DNA of 64,000 nt from Nocardioides sp. SYSU D00065 (GTDB lineage Bacteria > Actinomycetota > Actinomycetes > Propionibacteriales > Nocardioidaceae): NCBI RefSeq assembly GCF_017916425.1, contig NZ_JAFMSX010000001.1, positions 1,178,001-1,242,000 on the forward strand, written 5' to 3'. Below the pieces are notes generated by a model. That model had not been told where the DNA came from and ran no database searches. It saw only the letters and a list, made by a program, of their open reading frames with translations. Of this stretch, positions 13,460-33,334 are shown one piece after another (position 1 is the first letter of the stretch; each line of letters starts with the position of its first letter). The position numbers and the translations under genes were made by a program.

Positions 13460-14557
13460 TCAGCCCAGGTAGCGGCGCGCGACCAGCGCGCCCAGGTCGG
13501 TCAGCAGCCGGTCCGGCTCGCGCAGGCAGACGTCGACGTCGGGCTCGAGGTCGGTCAGCGCGTGGGCGCCGGCGAAGCCGGCGGCGGCCACCTGGTCGGC
13601 GGTGAGCAGGCTGCGCCCGCACACCGCGACCACCGGAACGCCGACCCGCGCGGCGGCGGTGGCCACGCCGACCGGCGCCTTGCCGCGCAGGCTCTGCTCG
13701 TCGAGCGACCCCTCGCCGGTGATGACCAGGTCCGCCCCGGGCACCCGGTCGGCGAACCCGAGCAGGTCGAGCATCAGGTCGATGCCGGGCCGCAGCTCGG
13801 CGCCGAGCACCGCGACGAGGCCGAAGCCCACGCCGCCGGCCGCTCCCGCGCCCGGCTGGTCTCGGCGGTCGGTCCCGGTTGCGGCTGCGACCGCATCGGC
13901 CCAGCGCACCAGCCGGGCGTCGAGGAGGGCGACCTGCTCGGGCGTGGCGCCCTTCTGCGGCGCGTACACCGCGGCCGCGCCCTCCGGACCGGTCAGCGGG
14001 TTGTCCACGTCGCAGGCGACCACGATGCGCGACTGTGCGAGCGCGGGGTGCAGGCCGGACAGGTCGAGGTGCACGTCCGACGACAGGTCGTGCGGGTCGA
14101 CCGCCGCCCCCAGCGCAGCCAGCATCCCGACCCCGCCGTCGGTGCTGGCGCTGCCGCCGATCCCGATCACGAGGTCGCGGCACCCCGCGTCCAGCGCGGC
14201 CGCGACGACCTCGCCGAGCCCGCGGCTCGTCGCGGTCGTCGGAGCAGGTACGCCGCCGGGCAGGCGGGCCAGCCCGCACGCGTCGGCCATCTCCACGACC
14301 GCGGTCGTGCCGCGCCGGGCGTACGCCGTCGCCACCGGCTCGCCGGTCGGCCCGCTCGCGACCACCGGCACCCGCTCGAACCCACTCGCGACGGCCGCGT
14401 CGAGGGTGCCGTCGCCGCCGTCGGCGACGGGTAGGACGTCGACGACCGCCTCGGGTCGCACCCGGCGCAGGCCCGTCGCCAGGGCGCGCGCGACCTCGTG
14501 GGCGGGGAGGGACCCCTTGAACTTGTCGGGCGCGACCAGCACGCGTGGCGTCGTCAT
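13460..14557 (-). CDS. glxK: Glycerate kinase (GlxK/GarK family)
   Basis: A 365-residue kinase that phosphorylates glycerate with ATP, feeding 2- or 3-phosphoglycerate into lower glycolysis. Family marks are the start VLVAPDKFKGSLPAHEVA, DGGDGT near residue 49, GIGGSASTDGG near residue 135 and TGEGSLDEQSLRGKAP near residue 275. Its ATG overlaps the LacI stop by 4 bp (ATGA), so the two are co-translated. The pair is divergent from an ABC importer and sugar-oxidation operon, which suggests glycerate or a precursor is a product of that pathway. Repeat copy B follows its stop. The phosphorylated position (2 or 3) cannot be read from sequence. Confidence 0.9.
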   Translation of the reverse strand: MTTPRVLVAPDKFKGSLPAHEVARALATGLRRVRPEAVVDVLPVADGGDGTLDAAVASGFERVPVVASGPTGEPVATAYARRGTTAVVEMADACGLARLPGGVPAPTTATSRGLGEVVAAALDAGCRDLVIGIGGSASTDGGVGMLAALGAAVDPHDLSSDVHLDLSGLHPALAQSRIVVACDVDNPLTGPEGAAAVYAPQKGATPEQVALLDARLVRWADAVAAATGTDRRDQPGAGAAGGVGFGLVAVLGAELRPGIDLMLDLLGFADRVPGADLVITGEGSLDEQSLRGKAPVGVATAAARVGVPVVAVCGRSLLTADQVAAAGFAGAHALTDLEPDVDVCLREPDRLLTDLGALVARRYLG

Positions 14558-15588
14558 GCGGGCGGCGGTGCGGTCGAGTCGCGGACCACCAGCTCGGCGC
14601 CGACCGGTCGGCGGCGGGGGCGGGCCCCCGGCTCCTTGAGCGCGAGGAGCAGCGCCTGCTCGCCCATCTCCCCCATGGGCAGCCGGACGGTGGTGAGCGA
14701 GGGGGCCAGGTCGCCCGCGACGGCGACGTCGTCGAAGCCGGTGACCGACACTTGTCCTGGGACCGAGATGCCGCGGGCGCGGAGGGCCGACAGCACGCCG
14801 ATCGCCATGTCGTCGTTGAGCGCGAGCACGGCGGTGACGCCCGGGTGTCGGTCGAGGATCTCCTCGGCGGCGGCCTTGCCGCCGGCGCGGGTGAAGTCGG
14901 CCTCCACGAGAGGTACGTCGGCGAAGTCGAGGCCGGCGGCGGTGAAGGCCGCCTCCAGACCGGTGATCCGGTCGGCGACCGTGGTGAGCCCGCGCGAGCC
15001 GGTCGCCACTGCCACCCTGCGATGGCCGAGGTCGAGCAGGTGCTGGGCGACCGAGCCGGCCCCGCCGGTGTTGTCGGGCAGCACGGCGTCCACGCCGAGG
15101 TGGTGCCGGCCGATCACCGCCACGCGACCCCCCGCACGCTGGAAGGCCTGGAGCTCGGCCTTGGCCGGCGCCTGCAGGCTCGGGTCGACCAGGCCGGATC
15201 CGGCGATGACGATGGCGCCGACGCGGTTGGCGACCAGCATCCGCAGCTGTTCGAGCTCGCGCTCGGGGTCGCGACCGGTGTGGCAGATCTGGACGGTGAG
15301 CCCCTCGCGAGCGCCGACGCCGAGCAGGCCGCTCGCGATCTCGGAGAAGTAGGGGTCGCCGATCTCGTGGACCACCAGGCCGACCGAGCGGCTCGGGCCG
15401 CCCGCGAGGCTGCGGGCGTGGACGTTGGCGACGTAGCCCAAGGAGGTCGCCACCGCGCGGACCCGCTCGGCCACCGGCACGCTCACCCCGGGCGCCCCGG
15501 ACAGGCTGCGCGAGGCGGTGGCGATCGAGACGCCGGCCGCCTCGGCCACGTCCTTGAGGCGCAGCGCGGTCGCCCGCTCCTTGTGCAT
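14554..15588 (-). CDS. LacI-family regulator of the sugar cluster
   Basis: A 344-residue regulator with the LacI HTH at residues 8-30 (LKDVAEAAGVSIATASRSLSG) and hinge helix near YVANVHARSLAGG, followed by the periplasmic-binding-protein-like effector domain. The ATG at 15588 is chosen because the longer reading has no site and the HTH normally starts within the first ten residues. Two tandem AAGCGCTT boxes at 15667-15686, in the promoter of the divergent ABC importer, are the expected LacI-type operators. I infer it represses the importer and its own kinase operon until the substrate or a product binds. The effector is unknown. Confidence 0.92.
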   Translation of the reverse strand: MHKERATALRLKDVAEAAGVSIATASRSLSGAPGVSVPVAERVRAVATSLGYVANVHARSLAGGPSRSVGLVVHEIGDPYFSEIASGLLGVGAREGLTVQICHTGRDPERELEQLRMLVANRVGAIVIAGSGLVDPSLQAPAKAELQAFQRAGGRVAVIGRHHLGVDAVLPDNTGGAGSVAQHLLDLGHRRVAVATGSRGLTTVADRITGLEAAFTAAGLDFADVPLVEADFTRAGGKAAAEEILDRHPGVTAVLALNDDMAIGVLSALRARGISVPGQVSVTGFDDVAVAGDLAPSLTTVRLPMGEMGEQALLLALKEPGARPRRRPVGAELVVRDSTAPPPA

Positions 15589-15630
15589 CTCGCCCCCTCG
15601 CGTCCGTCCCGGTCGATCCGATTGTGACCC

Positions 15631-15660
15631 TTGCCACATCCGGCGGATGCTGCCTACAGT
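15631..15660 (+). promoter_or_regulatory. Promoter of the ABC importer operon
   Basis: -35 TTGCCA (15631-15636), 18-bp spacer, -10 TACAGT (15655-15660). The LacI-type boxes begin 7 bp after the -10, covering the likely transcription start. Confidence 0.65.
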
Positions 15661-15666
15661 AGCCGA

Positions 15667-15686
15667 AAGCGCTTACGAAAGCGCTT
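15667..15686. promoter_or_regulatory. Tandem LacI-type operators
   Basis: AAGCGCTT at 15667-15674 and again at 15679-15686, each a perfect palindrome with the central CG typical of LacI/GalR operators, spaced 12 bp centre to centre. They lie between the -10 box and the start codon of the substrate-binding protein, 23 bp upstream of the ATG. Confidence 0.75.
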
Positions 15687-15709
15687 ACGCATTGGACCCG
15701 AGGAGTGAC

Positions 15710-16939
15710 ATGAAGGTCAAGACCCCCTACCGCGTGGCCGGACTCGCGATGGCGTCCTGCATGGCCCTGACGGCGTGCATGAGCTCCGGCTCGGACAGCG
15801 GATCCGCCGAGGACGGCGACGGCCCGATCAAGATCGGCATCTCCCTCCCGCTGACCGGCGACTTCTCCGAGCCGGGCAAGGGCGTGCAGCGCGGCTACGA
15901 GGCGTGGGCCGACTACGTCAACGAGAACGGCGGCCTCCTCGGCCGCGACGTCGAGCTCACCATCCTCGACGACCAGTCCAACGCCGACCGGGTCGCCGCC
16001 GACTACGAGAAGCTGATCAACCAGGACGGCGTCGACCTCGTCTTCGGCCCGTTCTCCACCCGACTCGTCGTGCCCGCGGCCCAGGTCGCCCAGGACTACG
16101 GATTCCTCTTCGTCGAGCCGGCCGGTGCCGCCGAGGAGGTCTTCACGCAGGGCTTCGACAACCTCTTCTACGCCGCCCCCGCCGTGGCCGACGACCACTA
16201 CAACTACCTCGCCGACGCCATCGAGGCGCTTCCCGAGGACCAGCGACCCAAGACCGCGGCGTACGCCGCGATGGACGACCCGTTCGCGATGGGCACGGCC
16301 TACGGCCTGAAGGACCGCCTGGAGGAGATGGGCGTCGAGACCGTCGTCGACGAGGTCTACCCGCCCAACACCACCGACTTCGGCTCCATCGCCGCCAAGA
16401 TCGCCGACAGCGAGGCCGACGTGGTCGTCGGCGGCACCCAGTACCAGGACGCGGTCAACATGATCGTCGCGCTCCAGCAGCTCGACTACCAGCCGAAGAT
16501 GGCGGCCTTCTCCACCGCGCCCACCAACCCCGAGTTCCCCGAGGCGATCGGCAGCAAGACCGAGGGCATCCTCTCCCCCACCGGCTACACCCCGGAGGCG
16601 GACTTCCCCACCAACCAGGAGTTCGTCGACTACTACACCGAGAAGAACGGCACGCCGCCGGCGGAGGACGAGGCCAACGCCTGGACCACCGGCCAGGTGG
16701 TCGCCGCCGCGGTGGAGGCCGTCGAGTGCGCCAGCCCCGACCCGGAGTGCCAGAGCCAGCTCATCGACTGGCTGCGTGAGAACGAGGTCGACACCGTCGT
16801 CGGCCCGCTCACCTGGGACGCCGAGGGCCGGCCGGAGGGCGCCCACCTGATCCAGCAGTACGTCGACGGGGAGATCCGCATCGTGCTGCCCGAGGAGGCC
16901 AAGGAGGCCGACCTCATCATCGAGAAGCCGGCCTGGTGA
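15710..16939 (+). CDS. ABC substrate-binding lipoprotein, branched-chain amino acid type
   Basis: A 409-residue extracellular binding protein (peripla_BP_6/LivK-like). The signal peptide ends in the lipobox LTAC (Cys near residue 23), so it is anchored by lipid. The mature part starts IKIGISLPLTGDFSEPGKGVQRG, typical of the family. It is the first gene of a five-gene importer. Although this transporter class is named for amino acids, members also carry amides, aromatic acids and other ligands. LacI control and the downstream sugar-type enzymes suggest a carbohydrate-like or sugar-acid ligand here. The ATG at 15710 has AGGAG 4 nt upstream. Confidence 0.9.
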   Translation: MKVKTPYRVAGLAMASCMALTACMSSGSDSGSAEDGDGPIKIGISLPLTGDFSEPGKGVQRGYEAWADYVNENGGLLGRDVELTILDDQSNADRVAADYEKLINQDGVDLVFGPFSTRLVVPAAQVAQDYGFLFVEPAGAAEEVFTQGFDNLFYAAPAVADDHYNYLADAIEALPEDQRPKTAAYAAMDDPFAMGTAYGLKDRLEEMGVETVVDEVYPPNTTDFGSIAAKIADSEADVVVGGTQYQDAVNMIVALQQLDYQPKMAAFSTAPTNPEFPEAIGSKTEGILSPTGYTPEADFPTNQEFVDYYTEKNGTPPAEDEANAWTTGQVVAAAVEAVECASPDPECQSQLIDWLRENEVDTVVGPLTWDAEGRPEGAHLIQQYVDGEIRIVLPEEAKEADLIIEKPAW

Positions 16940-17001
16940 CCCCGACCCGCCACGACGTCCCCGTCCGAGCGACCGACGCTCCCGACCGTTAGGCCCCTGT
17001 C

Positions 17002-17880
17002 ATGTCCTTGCTCTTGCAGAGCCTGGTGCTGGGCGTGCTGCTGGGTGGGCTCTACGCCCTCCTGGCAGCCGGCCTCACCCTCTACTTCGGCGTGATGCGC
17101 GTGGTGATGATCGCCCACTCGGCCTTCCTCATCCTCGCCGCCTACCTCGCCTGGTGGTTCTCCACCGAGACCGGCCTCGACCCGCTGCTGTCCCTCGTGC
17201 TGACGGTGCCGCTCTTCTTCGGGATGGGGGTCTTCATGCAGCGGGTGCTGATCAGCCGGCTGCGGCCGGCGACCCTGACGATGATGTCGGTGCTGCTCAC
17301 CTTCTCGATCGCGCTGGTCATCGAGGGCATGCTCGGCTTCGCGTTCAGCGGCACCCAGCGGCGCATCCGCCTCGACTACGGCGGTGCCAACTTCGAGGTG
17401 TTCGGCGCCAACGTCGCGGTGGTCAAGCTCATCGCCTTCGCCCTCGCCGCCGTCTCGCTCGCCGCGCTCTTCCTCCTCATGAAGAAGACGCAGTTCGGCC
17501 AGGCGCTGCGCGCCACCATCCAGCACCCGGAGGCGGCCCGGCTGATCGGGATCAACACCGACCGCGTGGCCGGCTACGGCTTCGGTCTCGGACTGGCGAC
17601 CGCAGCCGTCGGCGGCACCGCGCTCGCCCTGGACTCCACGTTCTACCCCTCGCTGCACTGGCACTGGATCGGCCCGCTGATGGCGATCATCGTCGTCGGC
17701 GGACTGGGCAGCATCCCCGGAGCGGCCATCGCCGCGATGGTGCTGGGCATGGGTCAGTCCCTGCTCCAGATCCCGCTCGGGACGACGTGGGCCCAGACGT
17801 TCTTCTACATCGCGTTGTTCGCCACCCTCATGGTGCGACCGCAGGGATTCTTCGGAGGTCGTCTTGCCCAGCGCTTCTGA
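17002..17880 (+). CDS. ABC permease, LivH type
   Basis: A 292-residue inner-membrane permease of the branched-chain amino acid family, with about eight hydrophobic segments. The start LLLQSLVLGVLLGGLYALLAAGLTLYFGVMRVVMIAH is the classical LivH N-terminus, and GGLGSIPGAA near residue 235 is the conserved loop that contacts the ATPase. It pairs with the LivM-type protein that follows and overlaps it by 17 bp. The ATG at 17002 has only a weak site, which suggests reduced or coupled translation relative to the binding protein. Confidence 0.92.
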   Translation: MSLLLQSLVLGVLLGGLYALLAAGLTLYFGVMRVVMIAHSAFLILAAYLAWWFSTETGLDPLLSLVLTVPLFFGMGVFMQRVLISRLRPATLTMMSVLLTFSIALVIEGMLGFAFSGTQRRIRLDYGGANFEVFGANVAVVKLIAFALAAVSLAALFLLMKKTQFGQALRATIQHPEAARLIGINTDRVAGYGFGLGLATAAVGGTALALDSTFYPSLHWHWIGPLMAIIVVGGLGSIPGAAIAAMVLGMGQSLLQIPLGTTWAQTFFYIALFATLMVRPQGFFGGRLAQRF

Positions 17881-19051
17881 CACCACGACCGTGACCTCGG
17901 CCGCGACCGGGGACACCACCCGCCGCCGCGGGTCCATGCTCCTCAAGGCGGTCGCCCTGGCCGTCCTCGCGGCGGGAGTCCTGTCCTTCCCGTCCGTCGC
18001 GGCCAACCCGTTCATCCTGTCGGTGGGCGTGGTCATCATGAGCTACGCCGTGCTGGCGACCTCGTGGAACTTCGTGGGGGGCTTCACCGGCTACATCTCC
18101 CTCGGCCACGCCGCCTACTCCGGCCTCGGCGGCTACGCCACCGGGCTCCTGGTCATCCACACCGGGATCAACCCGTGGCTCGCGATGGTGCTCGCCGGCC
18201 TGGTCGTCGCCGCGCTCGCGGTCCCGATCGGGATCGCCAGCCTCCGGGTGCGCGGCGCCTCCTTCGTGATCGTCTCGATCGCACTGGTGCTGATCCTCCT
18301 GCTGGTCTTCCAGTCGTGGGGCTCCTTCACCGGCGGCTCCAACGGCCTGCGGGTGCCGCGCCCGTTCGGCCCCGAGGTGCTGCGGCCCGAGCAGCACGAG
18401 CGGTTCTTCTACCTCCACGCGCTCCTGCTGGGCGTCGCCCTGCTGGTGTGGTGGCTCATCGACCGCTCCCGCTTCGGCACGGGCCTCAAGGCGATCCGCG
18501 AGGACGAGGACAAGGCGCAGGCCCTCGGCGTGCCGACCTTCACCTACAAGCTCATCGCGTTCGTCGTCTCGGCGTTCTTCACCGCCCTCGGCGGTGGCCT
18601 CTACGCCCTGTGGTTCGGCTTCCTCGACCCGATCTTCCAGTTCTCGATCCTGGTCGGCTCCTACATGGTGCTGATGAGCCTGCTCGGCGGCATCCGCAGC
18701 CTCTTCGGCCCGTTCCTCGGCGCCGTGATCGTCGGCTACGCGGTGGAGTACTTCAAGAACCAGTACGGCGACTCCCAGTTCCACCTCGTCGCGATGGGCC
18801 TGCTCCTGGGCCTGGTCGTGCTGTTCATGCCCGACGGCATCATCCCGGCCGCCACGAACCTCGTCGAGCGGTTCCGGCCGCAGAAGACCTCCATCCGCGA
18901 GGTCAGCGCGGCCGACCTGGCCGAGCAACGCCGTACGGCGGGACCCGAGGCGGGACAGGCCGACCAGCAGGCGCGGACCGACGACGGCACCGACATCCCC
19001 AGCACCGACACCCCGACCGACACCAGCGTCACGGAAGGAGCCCGCCGATGA
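17864..19051 (+). CDS. ABC permease, LivM type
   Basis: A 395-residue membrane permease with about ten hydrophobic segments and the LivM-like motif TSWNFVGGFTGYISLGHAAYSGLGGYATG near residue 66. The start is TTG at 17864 with GGAGG 5 nt upstream inside the end of the LivH gene. The last 60 residues (after EVSAADLAEQRR) form an Ala/Thr/Asp-rich tail not typical of LivM and probably cytoplasmic and disordered. The stop overlaps the next ATG (ATGA). Confidence 0.92.
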   Translation: MPSASDTTTVTSAATGDTTRRRGSMLLKAVALAVLAAGVLSFPSVAANPFILSVGVVIMSYAVLATSWNFVGGFTGYISLGHAAYSGLGGYATGLLVIHTGINPWLAMVLAGLVVAALAVPIGIASLRVRGASFVIVSIALVLILLLVFQSWGSFTGGSNGLRVPRPFGPEVLRPEQHERFFYLHALLLGVALLVWWLIDRSRFGTGLKAIREDEDKAQALGVPTFTYKLIAFVVSAFFTALGGGLYALWFGFLDPIFQFSILVGSYMVLMSLLGGIRSLFGPFLGAVIVGYAVEYFKNQYGDSQFHLVAMGLLLGLVVLFMPDGIIPAATNLVERFRPQKTSIREVSAADLAEQRRTAGPEAGQADQQARTDDGTDIPSTDTPTDTSVTEGARR

Positions 19052-19827
19052 CCGCCACCAGCGAGACCGCCGGCCCGAGCACCGCCGCGCCGTCCACGCC
19101 GAGCCTGGCCACGGTCGAGCTCCGGAAGTCCTTCGGCGGCGTGCACGCCGTCGACGGCGCGACCGTCACCTTCCACCACGGCAAGGTCAACGCGCTGATC
19201 GGCCCCAACGGCTCGGGCAAGACGACGTTCTTCAACTGCGTCACCGGCATGATCAAGCCCGACTCCGGCTCGGTGAGCTACCGGGGCGCCGACATCACCG
19301 GCAAGGCCCCGCACCGCATCGCGCGGGCCGGGGTGGGTCGCAGCTTCCAGCTGTGCCGGATCTTCCCGCGGATGACGGTGATGGAGAACATGCTCGTCGC
19401 CGTCCGGTCCACGAGCCTGCGCCGCCAGCTGTCCTCGGCGCGCAACCCCGAGGAGCTCGACCGTGCCCGCGGCCTGCTCGCCCGGGTCGGCATCGAGCAC
19501 CTCGAGCACTCGCTGGCGCGCGACATCTCCTACGGCCAGCAGAAGCTCCTCGAGCTCGCCGGCGTGCTGATGGCCGACCCCGACACGATCATGCTCGACG
19601 AGCCGGCGGGGGGCGTGAACCCGGCGCTGATCGACCGGATCGCCAACCTCGTGCGATCCCTCAACGCCGAGGGCAAGACCTTCATCGTCGTCGAGCACAA
19701 CATGGACCTGGTCATGTCGCTCTCCGACCACGTCGTGGTCTTCGACCGCGGCCGCCCCATCTGCGAAGGCACCCCGTCGGTCGTGCAGAACGACCCCCGA
19801 GTCCTGGAGGCCTACCTTGGCATCTGA
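19048..19827 (+). CDS. ABC ATPase, LivG type
   Basis: A 259-residue ATPase. Walker A is GPNGSGKTT (about residues 52-60), the signature is ISYGQQK in place of LSGGQ, and Walker B is IMLDEPAGGVNP, as usual in LivG. About 20 Thr/Ser/Pro-rich residues precede the domain. It overlaps the LivM gene by 4 bp and the LivF gene by 11 bp, so all four cytoplasmic and membrane components are translationally coupled. Confidence 0.92.
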   Translation: MTATSETAGPSTAAPSTPSLATVELRKSFGGVHAVDGATVTFHHGKVNALIGPNGSGKTTFFNCVTGMIKPDSGSVSYRGADITGKAPHRIARAGVGRSFQLCRIFPRMTVMENMLVAVRSTSLRRQLSSARNPEELDRARGLLARVGIEHLEHSLARDISYGQQKLLELAGVLMADPDTIMLDEPAGGVNPALIDRIANLVRSLNAEGKTFIVVEHNMDLVMSLSDHVVVFDRGRPICEGTPSVVQNDPRVLEAYLGI

Positions 19828-20569
19828 CGCCCCCTACCTGCTGGAGCTCGACGACATCGAGGCCGGCTACGGCCGCGCCGCGCTCGTCCTGCGCGGCCTC
19901 ACCGTCAAGGTCCCGCCCGCCACGGTGGTGTGCCTGGTCGGCCCCAACGGCGCCGGCAAGTCCACCGTCCTCAAGGTCGCCAGCGGCATGCTGACCCCGC
20001 GCTCGGGCGCCATCCGGGTGGCCGGGCAGGACGTCACGAAGAACTCGCCGCAGCAGATGCTGGCCGCCGGGCTCTCCCACGTCCTGCAGGGCCACAGCGT
20101 GTTCAAGGAGATGACGGTCGAGGAGAACGTCCGCCTCGGCGCCTACTCGGTCAAGGACAAGAGCGAGGTCAACGACCGCATCGACTTCGTCAAGACGCTC
20201 TTCCCGGTCGTCGCCGACCGCTGGAACGCGCTGGCGGGCGCCCTCTCGGGCGGGCAGCAGAAGCAGGTCGAGTTCGCCCGCTCGCTGATGGTCAGCCCGC
20301 AGGTCGTGCTGCTCGACGAGCCCTCCATGGGCCTGGACCCCAAGGCGACCGGCACCGTCTTCGAGCAGGTCGTGCGGATGCGCGACGCCGGCACCGCGGT
20401 GCTGCTGGTCGAGCAGAACGCCCGCCGGGCGCTGGAGACCGCCGACCTCGGCTGCGTGCTCGACCTGGGGCGCGTCCACATCTCCGGCCCCGCCGACGAG
20501 CTGCTGCGCGACCCGCAGCTCGCCGAGCTCTACCTGGGCGGACGGCCGAGCGCCGCGCCCACCGCCTGA
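19817..20569 (+). CDS. ABC ATPase, LivF type
   Basis: A 250-residue ATPase partner of the LivG-type protein. Walker A is GPNGAGKST, the signature LSGGQQKQVEFARSL and Walker B VVLLDEPSMGLDP. The start is TTG at 19817 with GGAGG 6 nt upstream, the second TTG start in this operon. It is followed after 38 bp by the oxidoreductase gene, with no terminator visible between them, so the importer and enzymes are probably one transcript. Confidence 0.92.
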   Translation: MASDAPYLLELDDIEAGYGRAALVLRGLTVKVPPATVVCLVGPNGAGKSTVLKVASGMLTPRSGAIRVAGQDVTKNSPQQMLAAGLSHVLQGHSVFKEMTVEENVRLGAYSVKDKSEVNDRIDFVKTLFPVVADRWNALAGALSGGQQKQVEFARSLMVSPQVVLLDEPSMGLDPKATGTVFEQVVRMRDAGTAVLLVEQNARRALETADLGCVLDLGRVHISGPADELLRDPQLAELYLGGRPSAAPTA

Positions 20570-20607
20570 CGTACGCCCACCCGACGACCTCGACGTGAGG
20601 ACCCACC

Positions 20608-21747
20608 ATGCCTGACAGCACACTCCGCATCCTGATGAACGGCGTCACCGGACGCATGGGCTACCGCCAGCACCTGCTGCGCTCGATCCTGGCCATCCGC
20701 GACGACGGCGGGATCGCGCTGCCCGACGGCACCCGGCTGCAGGTGGAGCCGGTGCTGCTGGGGCGCAACGCCGACAAGCTGGCGCGCCTGGCCGACCAGC
20801 ACGGCATCGCCGACTGGTCCACCGACCTCGACACCGCGCTGGCCGAGGACCCCGCCCCGATCTACTTCGACGCCCAGGTCACCAGCGAGCGCAAGAAGGC
20901 GATCCTCAAGGCCGCCGCCGCCGGCAAGCACGTCTACACCGAGAAGCCGATCGCCGAGACCGTCGCCGAGGGCCAGGAGCTCGTGGACGCCGCGGAGCGC
21001 AGCGGCATCATCAACGGCGTCGTCCACGACAAGCTCTACCTGCCCGGGCTGATGAAGCTCAAGCGCCTGGTGGACTCCGGCTTCTTCGGGCGCATCCTGT
21101 CGGTGCGCGGGGAGTTCGGCTACTGGGTGTTCGAGGGCGACTACCTCCCGGCCCAGCGACCCAGCTGGAACTACCGCGCCGAGGACGGCGGCGGGATGGT
21201 GCTCGACATGTTCTGCCACTGGAACTACGTGCTCGAGAACCTGTTCGGCGGCGTCGAGGCGGTCACCGCCAAGGCGGTCACGCACATCCCGGAGCGGTGG
21301 GACGAGAACGGCGAGCGCTACGACGCCACCGCCGACGACGCGGCGTACGCCATCTTCGAGCTGGCCGGCGGCATCATCGCGCAGGTCAACTCCTCCTGGG
21401 CGGTCCGCGTGGAGCGCAAGGAGCTGGTGGAGTTCCAGGTCGACGGCACCCACGGCTCGGCGGTCGCCGGCCTGTTCAACTGCCGCATCCAGCCGCGCGA
21501 GTCGACCCCGATGCCGGTGTGGAACCCCGACCTGCCGACCACCGAGGACTTCCGCGGCCAGTGGCGCGAGATCCCGGACAACCAGGTCTTCGGCAACGGC
21601 TTCCGCGCGCAGTGGGAGCAGTTCCTGCTCGACGTGCACCACGGCCGTCCACACCGCTACGACTTCTCCGCCGGCGTCCGCGGCCTCGAGCTCGTCGACG
21701 CCGGCCTCACGTCCTCGCGCGAGGGCCGGCGGGTGGCGCTGCGATGA
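20608..21747 (+). CDS. Gfo/Idh/MocA-family oxidoreductase
   Basis: A 379-residue NAD(P)-dependent dehydrogenase of the glucose-fructose oxidoreductase/inositol dehydrogenase/MocA family. The dinucleotide-binding loop GVTGRMGYRQ is near residue 12, EKP (E112-K113-P114) is the catalytic-lysine motif, and residues after 130 form the alpha/beta C-terminal domain with the conserved GGGMVLDMFCHW region carrying the likely catalytic Asp and His. Such enzymes oxidise a ring or chain hydroxyl of sugars, cyclitols or sugar acids. It begins the enzyme part of the LacI-controlled operon; the two following genes overlap by ATGA. Substrate unknown. Confidence 0.9.
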   Translation: MPDSTLRILMNGVTGRMGYRQHLLRSILAIRDDGGIALPDGTRLQVEPVLLGRNADKLARLADQHGIADWSTDLDTALAEDPAPIYFDAQVTSERKKAILKAAAAGKHVYTEKPIAETVAEGQELVDAAERSGIINGVVHDKLYLPGLMKLKRLVDSGFFGRILSVRGEFGYWVFEGDYLPAQRPSWNYRAEDGGGMVLDMFCHWNYVLENLFGGVEAVTAKAVTHIPERWDENGERYDATADDAAYAIFELAGGIIAQVNSSWAVRVERKELVEFQVDGTHGSAVAGLFNCRIQPRESTPMPVWNPDLPTTEDFRGQWREIPDNQVFGNGFRAQWEQFLLDVHHGRPHRYDFSAGVRGLELVDAGLTSSREGRRVALR

Positions 21748-22922
21748 GCCCCGCCCGCGTCGAGGTCCCGCTGGCCGACGGCGGGTGGCAGGAGGTCACC
21801 CTCGCCGAGCCGCGCCAGTGGAAGGACCACCCGCAGCCCTACGCCCAGCGCGTCGCCTTCGCCGCGGCCCACGTCGTGGCCGACCCCCGCGGGGAGAACG
21901 TCCCGGGTGCGCCCGCGGTGGTCGACTGGGACGCCACGCTCGCCTTCCGGCGCGAGCTGTTCCGCTACGGCTTCGGCGTCGCCGAGGCGATGGACACCGC
22001 CCAGCGCAACATGGGCCTGGACTGGCCCGCGGTGCAGGAGCTGGTGCGCCGCAGCGCCGAGCAGGCGCGGGAGTACGACGCCCGCATCGCCTCCGGTGCC
22101 GGCACCGACCACGCGCCGGCAGCCGCCACCCTCGACGAGGTGCGTGCGGCGTACGCCGAGCAGGTGGCGTTCGTCGAGTCGACCGGCTCCCAGGTGATCT
22201 TGATGGCGTCGCGCCAGCTGGCCGCCGTCGCGGCGGGACCCGACGACTACCTGTCGGTCTACGCCGAGCTGCTCAGCCAGGTGCGCGAGCCGGTGATCCT
22301 GCACTGGCTCGGCGAGGCCTTCGACCCGCAGCTGCGCGGCTACTGGGGCTCGGCCGACGTCGACGCCGCCACCGCGACGTTCCTCGACCTCGTGCGCGCG
22401 CACGCCGACAAGGTCGACGGGGTGAAGGTGTCGCTGCTGTCGGCCGACCACGAGACCGGGCTGCGCGCGCAGCTGCCGGACGGCGTGCGCCTCTACACCG
22501 GCGACGACTTCAACTACCCCGAGCTCATCCGCGGCGACGGACGGCACCACTCCGACGCGCTGCTCGGCGCGTTCGCGGCCATCGCCCCGGCCGCCTCGGC
22601 GGCACTGACCGCGCTGGACGAGGGCGACCTCGAGACCTACGACGCGGAGATGGCGCCCACCCTGCCGCTCTCGCGGCACGTGTTCGAAGCCCCGACGTAC
22701 CACTACAAGGTCGGCATCGCCTTCCTGTCGTGGCTGTGCGGCCACCAGCCCGGCTTCACCATGGTCGGCGGCCTGCAGTCCGCGCGCAGCGCGGTGCACC
22801 TCGGCCGGCTCTTCGCGCTGGCCAACGAGGCCCGGCTGCTGCCCGACCCCGAGCTGGCGGCGCACCGGATGCAGCTGTGCCTGCAGGTCGCCGGCCTCGA
22901 CGGCCCGGGACGTACGCGATGA
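21744..22922 (+). CDS. DUF993 aldolase-like (dihydrodipicolinate synthase-like) protein
   Basis: A 392-residue protein matching the DUF993 family, usually described as dihydrodipicolinate synthase-like. The middle and end follow the class I aldolase pattern: DGVKVSLLSADHE places K228 where the Schiff-base lysine of DHDPS/NAL enzymes lies, and LYTGDDFNYPELI matches the GDD segment that follows. The first 120 residues have no clear DHDPS counterpart. It overlaps the oxidoreductase and the TIM-barrel gene by ATGA on both sides, so the three act together. I infer a retro-aldol cleavage or dehydration of the oxidised sugar; this is not shown by sequence alone. Confidence 0.75.
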   Translation: MSPARVEVPLADGGWQEVTLAEPRQWKDHPQPYAQRVAFAAAHVVADPRGENVPGAPAVVDWDATLAFRRELFRYGFGVAEAMDTAQRNMGLDWPAVQELVRRSAEQAREYDARIASGAGTDHAPAAATLDEVRAAYAEQVAFVESTGSQVILMASRQLAAVAAGPDDYLSVYAELLSQVREPVILHWLGEAFDPQLRGYWGSADVDAATATFLDLVRAHADKVDGVKVSLLSADHETGLRAQLPDGVRLYTGDDFNYPELIRGDGRHHSDALLGAFAAIAPAASAALTALDEGDLETYDAEMAPTLPLSRHVFEAPTYHYKVGIAFLSWLCGHQPGFTMVGGLQSARSAVHLGRLFALANEARLLPDPELAAHRMQLCLQVAGLDGPGRTR

Positions 22923-23824
22923 CCGCCGTCGACGTGGCCCTCGACGTCCCCTCGGGTGCCCCCGCGCGAGTCGCGACACCCGCCCCGGGCGACCCCCGCC
23001 TGGCCCGGCTCTCCCTCAACCAGAAGACGGTCGACGGGTGGAGCCTCCGAGAGGCGATCGACGGCTGCGTCGCTGCCGGGCTGCCGGCCCTCGGTGCGTG
23101 GCGCGAGCCGGTCGCCGAGGTCGGGCTCGAGACGGCCGCTCGCTGGGTGCGCGAGGCGGGCCTGCGGGTCTCCTCGGTGTGTCGCGGCGGCTTCTTCACC
23201 GGCGCCGGCGACCTGTCGCGGGCCGAGCGGCACGACGACAACCGTCGAGCCCTCGACGAGGCCGCGGCGCTCGGCGCCCCGTGCCTGGTCCTGGTGCCGG
23301 GCGGCCTGCCCGCCGGCGACCGCGACCTCGGTGCCGCGCGCGCCCGCGCGGCCGACGCGATCGAGGCGCTCGTCCCGCACGCGCTCGACGTCGGCGTACG
23401 TCTCGCGATCGAGCCGATGCACCCGATCTTCGCCGCCGACCGCGGCGTCGTCTCCACGCTGGCACAGGCCCTCGACATCGCCGAACCGCTCCCGTCGGCC
23501 GCCGTCGGCGTCGTCGTCGACACGTTCCACGTGTGGTGGGAGCCGGGCGTGGAGGAGCAGATCGCCCGCGCCGGCGAGCGGATCGCGTCCTACCAGGTCT
23601 GCGAGTGGATCACCCCGCTCCCGCCGGACGCCCTGCTGTCCCGCGGGATGATGGGCGACGGCCACATCGACTTCGCGCGACTGACCTCCCTCGTCGCCGC
23701 CGCCGGCTACACCGGCGACGTCGAGGTCGAGATCTTCAACGCCGACGTCTGGGCCGCCGACGGCCGGGCTGTCGTCGACACGCTCGCCCGCCGCTACGTC
23801 GAGCTCGTGGAGCCGCACCTCTGA
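22919..23824 (+). CDS. Sugar phosphate isomerase/epimerase-like TIM barrel
   Basis: A 301-residue AP-endonuclease-2/xylose-isomerase-like barrel. Metal-ligand candidates lie at the ends of predicted strands: E in AIEPMHPIF, D and H in VVDTFHVWW, H in GDGHIDF and E in EVEIFN. Members isomerise or epimerise sugars or dehydrate inosose-like ketoses. The gene overlaps the DUF993 gene and ends 64 bp before the secreted-protein gene. Together with the Gfo/Idh/MocA enzyme it suggests oxidation followed by epimerisation or dehydration and then aldol cleavage. Confidence 0.85.
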   Translation: MTAVDVALDVPSGAPARVATPAPGDPRLARLSLNQKTVDGWSLREAIDGCVAAGLPALGAWREPVAEVGLETAARWVREAGLRVSSVCRGGFFTGAGDLSRAERHDDNRRALDEAAALGAPCLVLVPGGLPAGDRDLGAARARAADAIEALVPHALDVGVRLAIEPMHPIFAADRGVVSTLAQALDIAEPLPSAAVGVVVDTFHVWWEPGVEEQIARAGERIASYQVCEWITPLPPDALLSRGMMGDGHIDFARLTSLVAAAGYTGDVEVEIFNADVWAADGRAVVDTLARRYVELVEPHL

Positions 23825-23888
23825 CCTCACCGGCCCGCCGGGCCACTGCACGCCCCCACTCTGGATTCTCGGAAAGGAACGGGAGCAC

Positions 23889-24596
23889 ATGCACCGCAGG
23901 ACCATCCCCACCACGCTCGTCAGCACCGCCCTCCTCACCACGGCGGTCCTCGCCTCGCCCGCTACGGCGGCGACAGCCGCCCCCGACCACGACCGGACGG
24001 TCAGGGTCGTCGCACCGGCGACCCCCCAGCACTGGGACCCGCTGACCGACGAGCTGTGGGACTACCGGGGCAACCAGGTCGTCCTCACCCGCGCCGGCAC
24101 CAACCCGAACGACGGCGTGCGTCGCCCCTTCGAGTACGCCGTCGTGACCAAGGGGCCCGAGCTCGCCGACGTCGACGTCAGCGCCGAGGTGCGTCTCGAC
24201 GAGTCGGTCACCGTCAGCAACCGCGACGTGGTGGTCATCTGGAACTACCAGGGACCTCGGCGCTTCTACTACGCCCACTTCTCGCAGGACAACACGATCT
24301 ATCCGCACAACGGGATCTTCGTGGTGGACGAGGCCGACCGCCGGCGCATCGACGACCAGTGGACCGGCTCGGTGGGCGCCCCACCCGCCGTCACCGACGC
24401 CGACTGGCACGACGTGCGGGTGTCCTACGACGCGGACACCGGCCGCATCGAGGTCTACGTCGACGGTGCCGACGAGCCGCTCATGACGGCCACGGACACC
24501 ACGTTCTCCGGCGGCCGCGTGGGCTTCGGCTCGTTCGACAACTTCGGTCGCACGCGCCACTTCCGCGCGGTCGGCACCGCGGTCACCACGCCGTGA
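23889..24596 (+). CDS. Secreted concanavalin-like (DUF1080-like) protein
   Basis: A 235-residue exported protein. A signal peptide covers about residues 1-30 (HRR, hydrophobic core, ATAATAAP). The mature part has the beta-sandwich pattern of LamG/DUF1080 proteins: SAEVRLDESVTVSNRDVVVIWNY, NGIFVVDE, WHDVRVSYDADTGRIEVYVDG and GGRVGFGSFDN. DUF1080 proteins include 3-keto-disaccharide hydrolases; others only bind glycans. It follows the catabolic operon on the same strand, and a strong terminator comes after it. GGAAAGGAACGGGAGCAC precedes the ATG. Hydrolase or binding activity is undetermined. Confidence 0.75.
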   Translation: MHRRTIPTTLVSTALLTTAVLASPATAATAAPDHDRTVRVVAPATPQHWDPLTDELWDYRGNQVVLTRAGTNPNDGVRRPFEYAVVTKGPELADVDVSAEVRLDESVTVSNRDVVVIWNYQGPRRFYYAHFSQDNTIYPHNGIFVVDEADRRRIDDQWTGSVGAPPAVTDADWHDVRVSYDADTGRIEVYVDGADEPLMTATDTTFSGGRVGFGSFDNFGRTRHFRAVGTAVTTP

Positions 24597-24611
24597 CCAC
24601 CCCCTGATCCC

Positions 24612-24643
24612 CGTCGGTCCCCCGGCGAACCGGGGGACCGACG
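24612..24643 (+). terminator. Strong hairpin terminator
   Basis: A perfect 14-bp stem (24612-24625 with 24630-24643) closed by a CGAA tetraloop, 15 bp after the stop of the concanavalin-like gene. It likely ends the operon that starts at the LacI-controlled promoter, leaving the next secreted protein with its own promoter or partial read-through. Confidence 0.8.
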
Positions 24644-24715
24644 AGGGCTGCCGCGGACCCGGGCAAGGAATCGCGGCAGCAGTCGTCTCCAACCACCTCA
24701 ACGATAGGGACCCCC

Positions 24716-27001
24716 ATGCGACACACACGCTGGTGGACCGCTGCCCTCACCACCTCCCTGGTGGCAGCGGCCCTCTCCCCCCTGGCCGCCCCGGCCACGG
24801 CCACGCGCTCCTCCGGGCCGGGGGCGCCACCGATCCCGCCCGACCCGCAGCCGTCCAACCTCGGCCTGGTGCTGGAGGAGTACGCACAGCTGCCCGCCTC
24901 CGAGCCGACCCCGGCGCCCACGGACGCCCGGCTCATGCGGCACAACCGGATCAACTACATCGGCGAGGTCCCCGACGGCTCCGGGCGCCTCTACGTCCCG
25001 GACCTCAACGGCCCGCTCTACCTGCTGCGGGACGGGGAGGAGACCGTCTACCTCGACATCAAGGCACGCTTCCCGGAGTTCTTCTCCGGCCGCGGCATGG
25101 GCTCGGGGTTCGGCTTCGTGACGTTCCACCCCGAGTTCGCGGACAACGGCAAGTTCTACACCGTCCACACCGAGGACCGTGACGCGATCGCGACCCAGCC
25201 GCCGACGTACCCCAACCAGCCCAACGCCTTCGTGCAGAGCGTGGTGACCGAGTGGACGGCGAGCGACCCCTCTGCCGACACCTTCGAGGGCACCTCGCGC
25301 GAGATCTTCCGCTTCGGCTTCACCGAGCAGATCCACGCCATCCAGCAGATCGACTTCAACCCGACGGCCGAGCCGGGCGACGAGGACTACGGCCTGCTCT
25401 ACCTCGCGGTCGGCGACGGCGGCAACGGCGTACGGAGCACGGTCCCGCAGGAGCTCGACAACCCCGCCGGCAAGATCCTGCGCATCGACCCCTTCGGCAC
25501 CGACGGCCCCAACGGCCAGTACGGCATCCCGGACAGCAACCCGTGGGTCGGCGAGCCGGGCGCGCTGGGTGAGATCTGGGCGATCGGCATGCGCGACCCG
25601 CACCGCTTCAGCTGGGACCTCGAGGGCAAGCACGACATGTACCTCGGGCACATCGGGCAGCGCGCCATCGAGGCGGTCTACGAGGTCGACGCAGGTGACG
25701 ACTTCGGCTGGCCCGACGTCGAGTCGCGGCTGGACTACCAGAACGACACCCAGTGCCGTCTCGACCCGATGACGCCCGAGCAGGCCGCCAAGGGCTACGA
25801 CTTCCCGGTCGCGTCGTACTCCCACGACACCCCGGCCAACTGGAGCTGCAACTCCGACTCCGGCCACGCGATCTCCGGCGGGCACGTGCACCGCGGTGAC
25901 CTCAAGGGCCTCTACGGCAAGTACGTCTTCGGCGACCTCGTCGAGGGCAAGGTGTTCTACACCGACGCCGCGCAGATGCGCGACGACCGCGACCGCGAGG
26001 CGACCGTCCACGAGCTGCAGCTCTTCACCACCGACGGCCAGCGCGTCCGGATGCCCGACCTGGTCGGCGACGGCCGCATCGACCTGCGCTTCGGCACCGA
26101 CTCAGAGCGCAACCTGTACCTGCTGGCGAAGGCCAACGGGATGATCTGGAAGGTCGTCGACACCGAGCGGGAGCAGTGGCCCGACGACGTCGAGCCGGCG
26201 CTGCGCAAGCACCTGGTCGCGTCGTACGACTTCGAGCACCCGTTCGCGGCCAACGACTCCTACGAGGAGGACCAGGGCCCCAGCCGCACGCTGATCTCGC
26301 TGATCAACGGCGGTGAGCGGATGCGCGTCGACGACGGCGCCTACCCCGGCTCCAACAACGCCCTGCAGGTCCACAGCGCTGCGGAGTCGCCGACCGGCAC
26401 GGCGTGGAAGGCCGGGGTCTACGAGGCCGACGCCGACGGCGTCGCGTCCCTGTCGAGGTTCAACAACGCCAAGGGCACGACGGTGATGGGCTGGTTCAAG
26501 ATGACCGGCCAGAACCCGACGCCCGGCTACAACGCGATCGGCCTCGCCGGGGTGCTGGCCGGCAACTCCGACGGCCACGGCGTACGCGCGCTGCTCGAGC
26601 TCATCCAGGTCAACGGCGAGCTCAAGCTGGTGGCGTTGGGCCGGCGGCTCGACACCGGCGCCTCGCAGACCTTCGCCGCGACGCAGGACTGGCAGGAGCT
26701 GCTCCCGCAGGGCGAGTGGGTCCACCTGGCGGCGACGTTCGACTTCGCGAAGGGGACGATGGCGCTCTACCGCAACGGCAAGAAGGTCGACGGCTTCTAC
26801 ACCGCGACCAACGACCCGTGGCAGGTCGACGGCACCGGCACGTCCGCGACGAACCCGCGCGGGATCAAGATCGGCGGCTCGTTCCCGCAGAACGGCACCG
26901 AGCGCAACCCGTGCAACTGCCGGATGGACGCGCTGATGTTCCTCGACGACGTGGCCAGCGCGTCGGAGGTGGCGCGCCAGTACCGCCGGTTCCGGCGCTG
27001 A
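24716..27001 (+). CDS. Secreted glucose/sorbosone dehydrogenase-type propeller with LamG-like domain
   Basis: A 761-residue exported protein. A signal peptide covers about residues 1-30. Residues 40-500 match the six-bladed GSDH propeller family, which includes PQQ-dependent sugar dehydrogenases: GFGFVTFHPEFADNGKFY, LYLAVGDGGNGV, NPAGKILRIDP, AIGMRDPHRFSWD and DDFGWP. Residues 510-761 look like a LamG/concanavalin-like domain (GTTVMGWFKMTGQ, WVHLAATFDFAKGTMALYRNGK, IKIGGSFP). It may oxidise an extracellular sugar or polymer end. Sequence does not prove PQQ use, and many family members are of unknown activity. It follows the LacI cluster after a terminator and ends beside repeat copy C. Confidence 0.85.
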   Translation: MRHTRWWTAALTTSLVAAALSPLAAPATATRSSGPGAPPIPPDPQPSNLGLVLEEYAQLPASEPTPAPTDARLMRHNRINYIGEVPDGSGRLYVPDLNGPLYLLRDGEETVYLDIKARFPEFFSGRGMGSGFGFVTFHPEFADNGKFYTVHTEDRDAIATQPPTYPNQPNAFVQSVVTEWTASDPSADTFEGTSREIFRFGFTEQIHAIQQIDFNPTAEPGDEDYGLLYLAVGDGGNGVRSTVPQELDNPAGKILRIDPFGTDGPNGQYGIPDSNPWVGEPGALGEIWAIGMRDPHRFSWDLEGKHDMYLGHIGQRAIEAVYEVDAGDDFGWPDVESRLDYQNDTQCRLDPMTPEQAAKGYDFPVASYSHDTPANWSCNSDSGHAISGGHVHRGDLKGLYGKYVFGDLVEGKVFYTDAAQMRDDRDREATVHELQLFTTDGQRVRMPDLVGDGRIDLRFGTDSERNLYLLAKANGMIWKVVDTEREQWPDDVEPALRKHLVASYDFEHPFAANDSYEEDQGPSRTLISLINGGERMRVDDGAYPGSNNALQVHSAAESPTGTAWKAGVYEADADGVASLSRFNNAKGTTVMGWFKMTGQNPTPGYNAIGLAGVLAGNSDGHGVRALLELIQVNGELKLVALGRRLDTGASQTFAATQDWQELLPQGEWVHLAATFDFAKGTMALYRNGKKVDGFYTATNDPWQVDGTGTSATNPRGIKIGGSFPQNGTERNPCNCRMDALMFLDDVASASEVARQYRRFRR

Positions 27002-28665: not shown

Positions 28666-28921
28666 GACCGGTCAAGGGTACGGCGGCGAGCGAGGTCGCC
28701 CGAATCCGAACTCCGCTCACCCCCGGGGGTGAGCCGGCGCTGGTCACGCCTAGTCACTTCGGGCCACGCCCGGCGCTCGATCGGGTGGTTCTGTCCCAGC
28801 CGGTCGACGCGGCTCTTCTGAACCACTCAAGATCTCCTCAGACATGCACAAACTGGTAACACCCGGGAACGCCAGCTCGTCGTCGTCCCGGGTCGCCACG
28901 TCCACGGTGGGGGGAGACGTC

Positions 28922-30864: not shown

Positions 30865-31641
<777 letters not shown>

Positions 31642-31687
31642 CCCGCCCCCACGAGTTACCCGCACCCACAGATCAAGGGAGATGCAC

Positions 31688-32572
31688 ATGCGATTCATCC
31701 GTACGAAGGCGGTGGTGGCCGGTCTCGGCCTCGCGCTGAGCCTGGCCGCCTGCGGCGACGCCGGCGAAGACACCGAGGGCGCGGACGTCGAGGTCGCCGA
31801 GAACGCGGCCGACGAGTTCGACGACGGCACCCGCATGAAGGAGCTCGCCGAGGCCGGTTCCATCAAGATCGGCGTGAAGTTCGACCAGCCCGGCCTCGGC
31901 TTCAAGGACGCCGCCTCCGACGTCCCGACCGGCTTCGACGTCGAGATGGCCAAGGTGCTCGCGGCCGATCTCGGTATCGATCCGGAGACCGACGTGGAGT
32001 GGGTCGAGACGATCTCGGACAACCGCGAGCCGTTCCTGCAGGACAAGACGGTCGACCTCGTGCTGGCGTCGTACTCCATCACCGACGAGCGGCGCCAGGT
32101 CGTCGGCCAGGCCGGCCCGTACCTCGTGACCGGACAGCAGCTCCTCGTCACCGCCGACAGCGACATCTCCGACGTGGCCGACGTGAAGGGCGAGGAGGTG
32201 TGCTCGGTGACCGGGTCCACCTCGCTGGACAACGTCGAGGCCGAGGGCGCCAAGCCGGTCGGCTTCGACACCTACTCCGAGTGCGTGGAGAAGGTGCTCG
32301 ACGGCACGGTGCAGGCGATGACGACCGACGGCACGATCCTCGCCGGCTACGCCGCGCAGAACGAGGGCGAGCTCAAGGTCGTCGGCGAGGAGTTCTCCGA
32401 GGAGCGCATCGGCGTCGGCTACTCCCAGGACTACCCCGAGATGTGCCAGTGGATCGTCGACACGATCACCGAGGCCTACGAGGACGGGACCTACGAGGAG
32501 GCGTTCGAGGCGACGCTCGGCCCCTCGGGCGTCGAGGTGCCCGAGCTCCCCGAGATGGACTCCTGCGAGTAA
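31688..32572 (+). CDS. gluB: Glutamate ABC transporter binding lipoprotein
   Basis: A 294-residue extracellular binding protein of the SBP_bac_3 family. The lipobox is LAAC, with Cys near residue 22. GSIKIGVKFDQPGLGFKD begins the ligand-binding core, and FDVEMAKVLAADLG follows. The ATG at 31688 has AGGGAG 6 nt upstream; an ATG 6 nt earlier touches it and is rejected. A hairpin follows the stop, which probably makes gluB mRNA more abundant than the permease mRNA. Confidence 0.9.
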   Translation: MRFIRTKAVVAGLGLALSLAACGDAGEDTEGADVEVAENAADEFDDGTRMKELAEAGSIKIGVKFDQPGLGFKDAASDVPTGFDVEMAKVLAADLGIDPETDVEWVETISDNREPFLQDKTVDLVLASYSITDERRQVVGQAGPYLVTGQQLLVTADSDISDVADVKGEEVCSVTGSTSLDNVEAEGAKPVGFDTYSECVEKVLDGTVQAMTTDGTILAGYAAQNEGELKVVGEEFSEERIGVGYSQDYPEMCQWIVDTITEAYEDGTYEEAFEATLGPSGVEVPELPEMDSCE

Positions 32573-32588
32573 CACACCCTGATGCCGT

Positions 32589-32617
32589 CCCGGGCCCGTC
32601 GACGTGACGGGCCCGGG
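32589..32617 (+). terminator. Intercistronic hairpin after gluB
   Basis: A perfect 12-bp stem (32589-32600 with 32606-32617, CCCGGGCCCGTC) with a 5-nt loop, between gluB and gluC. Position fits partial termination or mRNA stabilisation, giving excess binding protein over permeases. Confidence 0.7.
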
Positions 32618-32643
32618 GCGGCCCCCCATGTGAGAGGAGTGGC

Positions 32644-33333: not shown

Positions 33334-33334
33334 C

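Follow-up and report, generated by a model that had tools for sequence, protein, structure and literature searches.

A recurrent bacterial gene cluster around DUF993, a probable Schiff-base aldolase, as a proposed variant of oxidative sugar-acid catabolism in Nocardioides

The branched, non-phosphorylative Entner-Doudoroff (ED) pathway, as described for Thermoproteus and Picrophilus, combines a dehydrogenase, an aldolase of the dihydrodipicolinate synthase (DHDPS)/NAL family and a glycerate kinase; KDG aldolases are placed in the DHDPS/NAL family (PMC9795676) and the branched pathway is said to use a class II glycerate kinase (PMC2063504). Two bacterial gene clusters are also relevant. The megaplasmid pAO1 of Paenarthrobacter nicotinovorans carries adjacent genes for a MocA dehydrogenase, a DUF993 protein and the glycerate kinase GlxK, with 62%, 56% and 48% identity, respectively, to the proteins described here; a 2013 study of pAO1, by its title a proposal of an oxidative xylose pathway, may cover these genes. 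In S. meliloti, the region SMc04130-SMc04139 encodes relatives of a TIM-barrel protein (SMc04130; 3ju2) and of DUF993 (SMc04132; 4dnh), whose structures were solved and deposited as uncharacterised. PMC12542648 lists genes numbered next to these two as oxidoreductases and a solute-binding protein, with negative values in a PhaR gene table and no substrate named there; nothing beyond this source was found on SMc04130-04133, 04135, 04137 and 04138, with most subscription journals outside the coverage of the search. Here we describe a related cluster from Nocardioides sp. SYSU D00065 (genome 3.87 Mb), located in a window of 64,000 nucleotides (positions 1,178,001-1,242,000 of contig NZ_JAFMSX010000001.1), to which all coordinates below refer unless a contig is named. 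LacI and GlxK lie on the minus strand, and LivK-H-M-G-F, MocA, DUF993, the TIM barrel, a secreted beta protein (ConA) and a GSDH-LamG protein on the plus strand.

The DUF993 cluster is a real, recurrent bacterial gene set, which confirms the original observation, and its core is the triad MocA-DUF993-TIM. Markers were counted within 10 kb of DUF993, each family being represented by a single query protein or a pair, so that distant members may be missed; the labels XylA, XylB, NMT1, SsuC, TIM2, TIM3 and ROK were given by eye. The 157 loci are represented by 155 distinct DUF993 sequences, and L156, from the genus of the window, has the same DUF993 sequence as L004 of Nocardioides lianchengensis, the two being counted as one locus. 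The named-genome set holds the best 80 of at least 587 confirmed loci, hence nearest relatives and not a sample, some of them on short contigs. As controls, 40 stretches at round coordinates were taken from family and phylum genomes only, while the loci come from more sources. Among the 80 named-genome loci, MocA and the TIM barrel were each found in 78 and LacI in 62. DUF993 is present in 43 of 294 same-family genomes, the window's own included, and the other 42 loci have MocA (38), TIM (41), LacI (37), class I glycerate kinase (32), LivK (29), GSDH (25) and ConA (23). All 39 family genomes with a MocA orthologue also have DUF993 (39/294; Fisher p ~2e-44, kinship ignored), and the TIM barrel occurs in 43 of the 294, 42 of them shared with DUF993, with genome G412 extra and G556 missing (p ~1e-48). 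In the same phylum DUF993 was found in 24 of 296 genomes, again with the own genome included; the 16 contexts all contain MocA, TIM and LacI, six contain a glycerate kinase, and LivK and GSDH appear once each. The control stretches gave no DUF993, MocA, TIM, LacI, ConA or GSDH, one glycerate kinase and one LivK. Because distant genomes also hold the set and none of the 40 controls contains any member of the triad, the cluster is more than a chance arrangement.

Co-conservation of the entire set, which was proposed as a check, holds for MocA, DUF993 and TIM, which travel together, but LivKHMGF, ConA and GSDH are the equipment of an actinobacterial version, whose loci come from Nocardioides, Amycolatopsis, Saccharopolyspora and Tamaricihabitans, other lineages having other importers. 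These include NMT1/SsuABC-type systems, which accompany LacI and GlxK in loci of the Nocardia type (labelled by eye; a relative from L207 tests as NMT1), sugar and ribose-type ATP-binding cassette (ABC) importers, TTT (L205, L206, L208, L272), TRAP (L274) and MFS transporters (L083, L270). LivKHMGF, ConA and GSDH nevertheless belong to the cluster, since L162, L164 and L165 hold LacI, Liv, the triad, GSDH and GlxK in another order (GSDH before LacI, GlxK after TIM), and L194, which belongs to a different class, carries LacI-LivKHMGF-MocA-DUF993 and, nearby, GSDH. The triad module was seen in actinobacteria, proteobacteria and bacilli with at least five kinds of importer, and naming the DUF993 reaction would annotate it throughout. 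None of 13 matching plasmid records covers more than 80% of the whole cluster.

The MocA orthologue is absent at four of the 42 family loci, L180 (G329), L182 (G583), L183 (G556) and L184 (G375). At L180, L182 and L184, DUF993 and TIM stand with SDR, CoA-transferase, crotonase, aldehyde dehydrogenase (ALDH) and GMC-type genes, and L183 is similar without TIM. Together with L082, L084, L087, L088, L210 and L212 they form a second DUF993 context, with SDR, GMC, CoA-transferase, crotonase or ALDH genes, no adjacent MocA of the window type and, in part, a glycerate kinase; here other substrates probably feed the same cleavage. In the alphaproteobacterial loci L084, L210 and L271, DUF993 and a MOFRL kinase are repeatedly accompanied by small genes of the Dabb family. 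On a Halosolutus plasmid (L211), a haloarchaeal MocA relative lies by an ABC importer and a kinase of the DUF4147/MOFRL type, with no DUF993 detected in the stretch.

DUF993 (PF06187; 21744-22922, plus strand; Pfam 599.6 bits, cut-off 24) is encoded once in the genome, and its structure model is a (beta/alpha)8 barrel of the DHDPS fold. As single-sequence profile comparison with DapA and KdgD was too weak, an alignment-based comparison was used instead. Lys228 is located on barrel strand 6 (E224-230; the profile alignment is shifted by one residue), and strand 5 carries His187; both residues are invariant in 157 of 157 loci. His187 aligns with the catalytic tyrosine of DHDPS, which we take to be Tyr133 of the E. 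coli enzyme. Because of the fold and these two invariant residues, DUF993 is probably a Schiff-base aldolase, and this predicted activity agrees with the splitting role that had been assigned to it. The model makes it a distant relative of the DHDPS/NAL superfamily by fold, sharing the TIM barrel and the strand-6 lysine, followed by a GDD motif; it differs in an N-terminal extension, in the strand-5 histidine and in having no reported PF00701 match. DUF993 has histidine where the superfamily calls for tyrosine, and for this reason we do not class it among the DHDPS or NAL enzymes. No paper on DUF993 or PF06187 was found by name or accession, most subscription journals lying outside the search. 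In L270, a plasmid of Chimaeribacter arupi, the DUF993 match is in two unannotated pieces, apparently a broken copy. A separate DHDPS-family protein of the window's own genome (L202; C1:1439204-1440064) resembles, by eye, 5-keto-4-deoxyglucarate dehydratase, and the genome may therefore also have a dehydratase-type aldarate route.

The strongest single clue to the product is the glycerate kinase. Within 10 kb, a PF02595 or DUF4147/MOFRL kinase accompanies 53 of the 155 distinct DUF993 loci and one of the 40 controls (p 1.5e-5). Among 19 plasmid records bearing DUF993, the DUF4147/MOFRL kinase is found in seven and the PF02595 kinase in two, and a Pfam check of six plasmid kinases gave the right type for all (four MOFRL, two PF02595). 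The position of the gene varies: with LacI, after TIM, after DUF993 or after ALDH. According to PMC2063504, the glycerate kinase classes have no common origin. Since two unrelated classes were recruited independently beside DUF993, glycerate is likely a product of the pathway, as originally predicted. The linkage of a glycerate kinase gene to a gene of predicted aldolase activity is also what a non-phosphorylative ED-type pathway displays. In the window, GlxK is of class I (PF02595; 13460-14557, minus strand; Pfam 406.9 bits; TIGR00045 355 bits, cut-off 168.45), and the genome has a second PF02595 copy away from the cluster. This linkage turns the "unknown function" of DUF993 into a short assay list.

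Gene content, overlaps, co-occurrence, the modelled fold with Lys228 and the kinase classes lead us to prefer, tentatively, a pathway in which a small sugar acid is imported, oxidised, rearranged and split by DUF993, with part of it reaching glycerate for GlxK. The secreted GSDH would convert an aldose outside the cell to a lactone or acid, which would enter through the Liv-type transporter; MocA would oxidise it and the TIM barrel would likely rearrange the product. Lys228 of DUF993 would then form a Schiff base with an alpha-keto sugar acid, and retro-aldol cleavage would yield hydroxypyruvate and an aldehyde. A 2-hydroxyacid dehydrogenase, candidates for which lie elsewhere in the genome and next to the triad in a few others, would reduce hydroxypyruvate to glycerate, which GlxK would phosphorylate to phosphoglycerate. 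Hydroxypyruvate was chosen because a lysine of the DHDPS type takes a keto acid, because hydroxypyruvate is one step from glycerate, and because a DHDPS/NAL-family enzyme was crystallised with it (PMC9795676).

Several neighbourhoods bear on the nature of the substrate. At L189 the triad shares a gene run with ALDH, GlxK, proteins of the DHDPS and MR_MLE families and one of the Epimerase family, to which uronate dehydrogenase presumably belongs; the MR_MLE protein is talarate/galactarate dehydratase-like (216.6 bits, against a cut-off of 500). The same markers were detected at L190 by tblastn, and the MR_MLE query matches only L189, L190, L193 and L272 among the 157 loci. The L185 run contains GH4, PF02826 and glucuronate isomerase (488.8 bits, cut-off 387). 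Near the triad, L053 has DUF2264, presumably a beta-glucuronidase family, and a GH127-type protein, and L070 has a PL8 lyase and a GH43 protein. DUF2264 was seen within 10 kb of DUF993 in L034, L053, L074 and L085. These neighbours suggest polysaccharide-derived acids, a hint only, as uronate markers (UxaC, GH4, DUF2264, MR_MLE or KdgD-type) occur at 11 of 155 loci and at none of 40 controls, which is not significant (p 0.12). XylA and XylB were recognised by eye close to the triad in loci of the Actinomadura and Arthrobacter types; a D-xylose link was nevertheless rejected, the XylA label being found at 10 of 155 loci and one of 40 controls (p 0.47, not significant). 4-O-Methyl-glucuronate was dropped for lack of a sensible C3 split.

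A number of observations weigh against the proposed pathway. With His187 in place of the DHDPS tyrosine, the chemistry of DUF993 may differ. That several lineages have sugar-type ABC importers argues against acids being the sole type of substrate: in the sets of 80, 42, 16 and 14 loci, the sugABC permease label, pointing to a sugar and not an acid, was given at 7, 0, 5 and 4, and the rbsC label at 5, 6, 3 and 3. The MocA of pAO1 may be an aldose 1-dehydrogenase. The window cluster encodes no dehydratase, lactonase, hydroxypyruvate reductase or ALDH, and a PF02826 gene stands directly 3' of TIM in L185 and L053, with three of 155 distinct loci overall. ALDH-type neighbours favour an aldehyde route, being present at 16 of 152 loci (3/80, 4/42, 4/16 and 5/14) and in none of the 40 controls. 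Kinase-free neighbourhoods make up 102 of the 155 distinct loci, and 73 of the 80 named-genome loci have no glycerate kinase near DUF993, including all 18 from Streptomyces, where a kinase encoded elsewhere could serve. Finally, the counts and p values ignore kinship, and closely related genomes dominate them.

The main rival to the hydroxypyruvate route is a glyceraldehyde route, favoured by the neighbour counts; it is possible, with a lower probability than the pathway preferred here. It would be ED-like and non-phosphorylative: MocA would dehydrogenate an aldose or aldonate, the TIM barrel would act as a dehydratase, and DUF993 would cut a 2-keto-3-deoxy acid to pyruvate and glyceraldehyde or glycolaldehyde, after which an ALDH encoded elsewhere would form glycerate, with GlxK last. 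A DHDPS-family aldolase with a glycerate kinase is the same architecture, and the ALDH neighbours, the pAO1 gene row of ALDH, MocA, DUF993 and GlxK, and the L189 run, in which MR_MLE, DHDPS, ALDH and GlxK accompany the triad, point the same way. Against this, the window cluster lacks an ALDH gene and a sugar-acid dehydratase (none of MR_MLE, IlvD/Edd or similar type among its protein families), and around those clusters of the family set that have a Liv-type importer the queries detect neither. The separate DHDPS-family protein of L189 makes DUF993 unlikely to be a mere duplicate, and the change from tyrosine to histidine also argues against this chemistry. A bolder form of the hydroxypyruvate route is doubtful. 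In it, DUF993 would be the first hydroxypyruvate-forming aldolase of its kind, in a dehydratase-free pathway sending all six carbons through glycerate kinase: MocA would oxidise an aldaric or uronic-acid-derived acid beside the carboxylate, DUF993 would split the non-deoxy 2-keto acid to give hydroxypyruvate plus tartronate semialdehyde, and the TIM barrel would interconvert these two, both being reduced to glycerate. If true, a dehydratase-free sugar-acid pathway would extend across actinobacteria, proteobacteria and bacilli.

Somewhat less credible, and improbable, is a 3-keto-glycoside route, in which MocA would oxidise a compound of the glucosyl-glycerate type at C3, the TIM barrel would release glycerate by beta-elimination and DUF993 would take the keto-sugar. 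Pairs of TIM-barrel and MocA proteins perform such chemistry in C-glycoside and levoglucosan degradation, the kinase linkage would fit, and MocA is weakly similar to levoglucosan dehydrogenase and disaccharide 3-dehydrogenase, yet its NCBIfam scores fall far under the cut-offs (64.5 against 650; 28 against 650). The TTT and TRAP importers of other lineages suit small acids and not glycosides. The part of the original prediction that invoked a DUF1080-type protein acting on 3-keto-glycosides found no support: the secreted 235-residue protein has no match to PF06439 (DUF1080), which we take to be the 3-keto-disaccharide hydrolase family, at E up to 1, and this identity was rejected. Less probable still is that only the triad is a functional unit, with GlxK, Liv and GSDH as chance neighbours belonging elsewhere. 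Liv, ConA and GSDH are missing at most distant DUF993 loci (LivK 7/80, 1/16 and 0/14) and a tail-less hairpin sets GSDH apart; on the other side stand the same contents rearranged in L162, L164 and L165, the similar arrangement with nearby GSDH in L194, and an operator region common to both divergent operons. The least credible reading, a known inositol or levoglucosan pathway that has acquired an unusual importer, was rejected, for although the MocA and AP_endonuc_2 families also include inositol and levoglucosan enzymes, IolE among them, and weak hits to such enzymes were obtained, the equivalog cut-offs are missed by far (IolG 54.2 bits against 355; levoglucosan dehydrogenase 64.5 against 650) and no other inositol-enzyme family matched (Pfam for all 12 proteins, NCBIfam for eight), so that the match to inositol catabolism, named in advance as refuting, was not found.

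The regulation of the cluster, like its chemistry, is read from sequence. LacI (Pfam LacI and Peripla_BP_3) occupies 14554-15639 on the minus strand, with an alternative start at 15588 by gene call. The gap to LivK contains, at 15664-15689, two adjacent LacI-type operator motifs GAAAGCGCTTAC with a 12-bp period, found by motif search as two identical 12-bp motifs head to tail (15665-15676 and 15677-15688). With up to one mismatch, the motif has exactly two sites in the whole genome, both between LacI and LivK; therefore, no additional target with this motif was found. Palindromes were also scanned, with no shuffled control, in 80 intergenic stretches of relatives (LacI/LivK or LacI/MocA). LacI faces LivK in 33 of these, and 32 of the 33 have palindromes of the window type, the LacI/LivK stretch of L194 having none; L012 and L013, in which LacI faces MocA, have them too. 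Mostly two or three overlap (e.g., L146, L149, L152, L164 and L171), with single ones in L004/L156 and L150. Different palindromes mark other groups: GGAAAGCGCATTCC is found in Nocardia-, Rhodococcus- and Mycolicibacterium-type loci, GGAAAGCGCTTGCC and GGAATGCGCTTTCC in Arthrobacter-type loci, and AGAAAGCGCTTGCT in most Streptomyces loci. These shared operator-like sites back the predicted LacI-controlled divergent unit, and suggest local control of both divergent operons, likely by the LacI-type regulator of the cluster.

Open reading frames and Pfam families agree that the LacI, GlxK, Liv importer, MocA, DUF993, TIM-barrel and GSDH genes named in the original prediction are all present, and its 4-bp (ATGA) overlaps were verified by coordinates at 14554-14557 (LacI/GlxK), 21744-21747 (MocA/DUF993) and 22919-22922 (DUF993/TIM). 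The importer genes, all on the plus strand, encode LivK, a HAAT-type substrate-binding protein (15710-16939; Peripla_BP_6 201.1 bits; Leu/Ile/Val-binding relatives in PDB), the BPD_transp_2 permeases LivH (17002-17880) and LivM (17891-19051), and the ATPases LivG (19048-19827; ABC_tran and BCA_ABC_TP_C) and LivF (19817-20569; ABC_tran); this is a complete importer of its type, with the ligand class predicted. LivK starts at ATG 15710, preceded by GAGGAG, correcting the long-ORF start at 15518. The GFO/IDH/MocA NAD(P)-dependent dehydrogenase (20608-21747, plus strand; Pfam; PDB 3oqb 480.6 bits) has K113 in 145 of 145 relatives and D200 and H204 in 144 of 145, one relative not being covered. The AP_endonuc_2 TIM barrel, isomerase/epimerase-like (22919-23824, plus strand; Pfam 120 bits; PDB 7vpf, 3ju2 and 3qc0), has E165, D201 and E271 identical wherever covered, and Q or H at position 226 (148 loci).

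The secreted, all-beta, lectin-like protein (23889-24596, plus strand) had been described as concanavalin-like, and that resemblance is weak: Laminin_G_3 scores 17.6 bits, under the cut-off, and the structure model is poor (pLDDT 54.5), so its Foldseek rows, lectin-like and others, were not used as evidence. The terminator claimed before GSDH stands in part. At 24612-24643 (plus strand) a strong 14-bp perfect hairpin is supported by folding z and sequence and followed by a second hairpin (z -4.2 for the whole stretch); no T run lies behind it, and the consensus terminator scan did not list it, leaving a tail-less terminator candidate. The secreted GSDH protein (24716-27001, plus strand) combines a glucose/sorbosone dehydrogenase-type domain (PF07995, 73.8 bits, cut-off 25) with Laminin_G_3 (40.8 bits). 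Its best PDB sequence matches are hedgehog-interacting proteins, then bacterial glucose/sorbosone dehydrogenases. H207 and R293, a putative His/Arg pocket as in aldose dehydrogenases of the pyrroloquinoline quinone (PQQ) type, are among the positions with 95% conservation or more across 25 aligned sequences. Three further features were judged by eye: just past the cluster, a MiaB-like gene and, at 28844-30241, a secreted protein that resembles a family-16-type beta-glucanase, and, at 30919-34198, four genes that may encode an ABC importer for amino acids. In relatives L166, L168, L169, L171 and L175, too, the cluster is followed by a block of four genes, labelled as containing an ABC ATPase.

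The cluster also differs from the systems described at the outset. Where the window has LivKHMGF, the pAO1 cluster has a sugar-type ABC importer, a GMC oxidoreductase and AldH, and no TIM, ConA or GSDH is annotated within 10 kb on each side; given its "oxidative xylose" proposal, the triad module may not be wholly undescribed. The S. meliloti cluster has an importer of the amino acid/peptide type, as annotated in PMC12542648. Compared with the branched ED pathway, the window cluster has no gluconate dehydratase and an extra TIM barrel, and its aldolase candidate is DUF993, not a PF00701 protein. We therefore read the cluster as a variant form of the oxidative, non-phosphorylated breakdown of sugar acids, in which DUF993 is the aldolase-like member, and not as a categorically new system; what is new is the prediction of a DHDPS fold for DUF993 with invariant Lys228 and His187, and its linkage to two unrelated classes of glycerate kinase.

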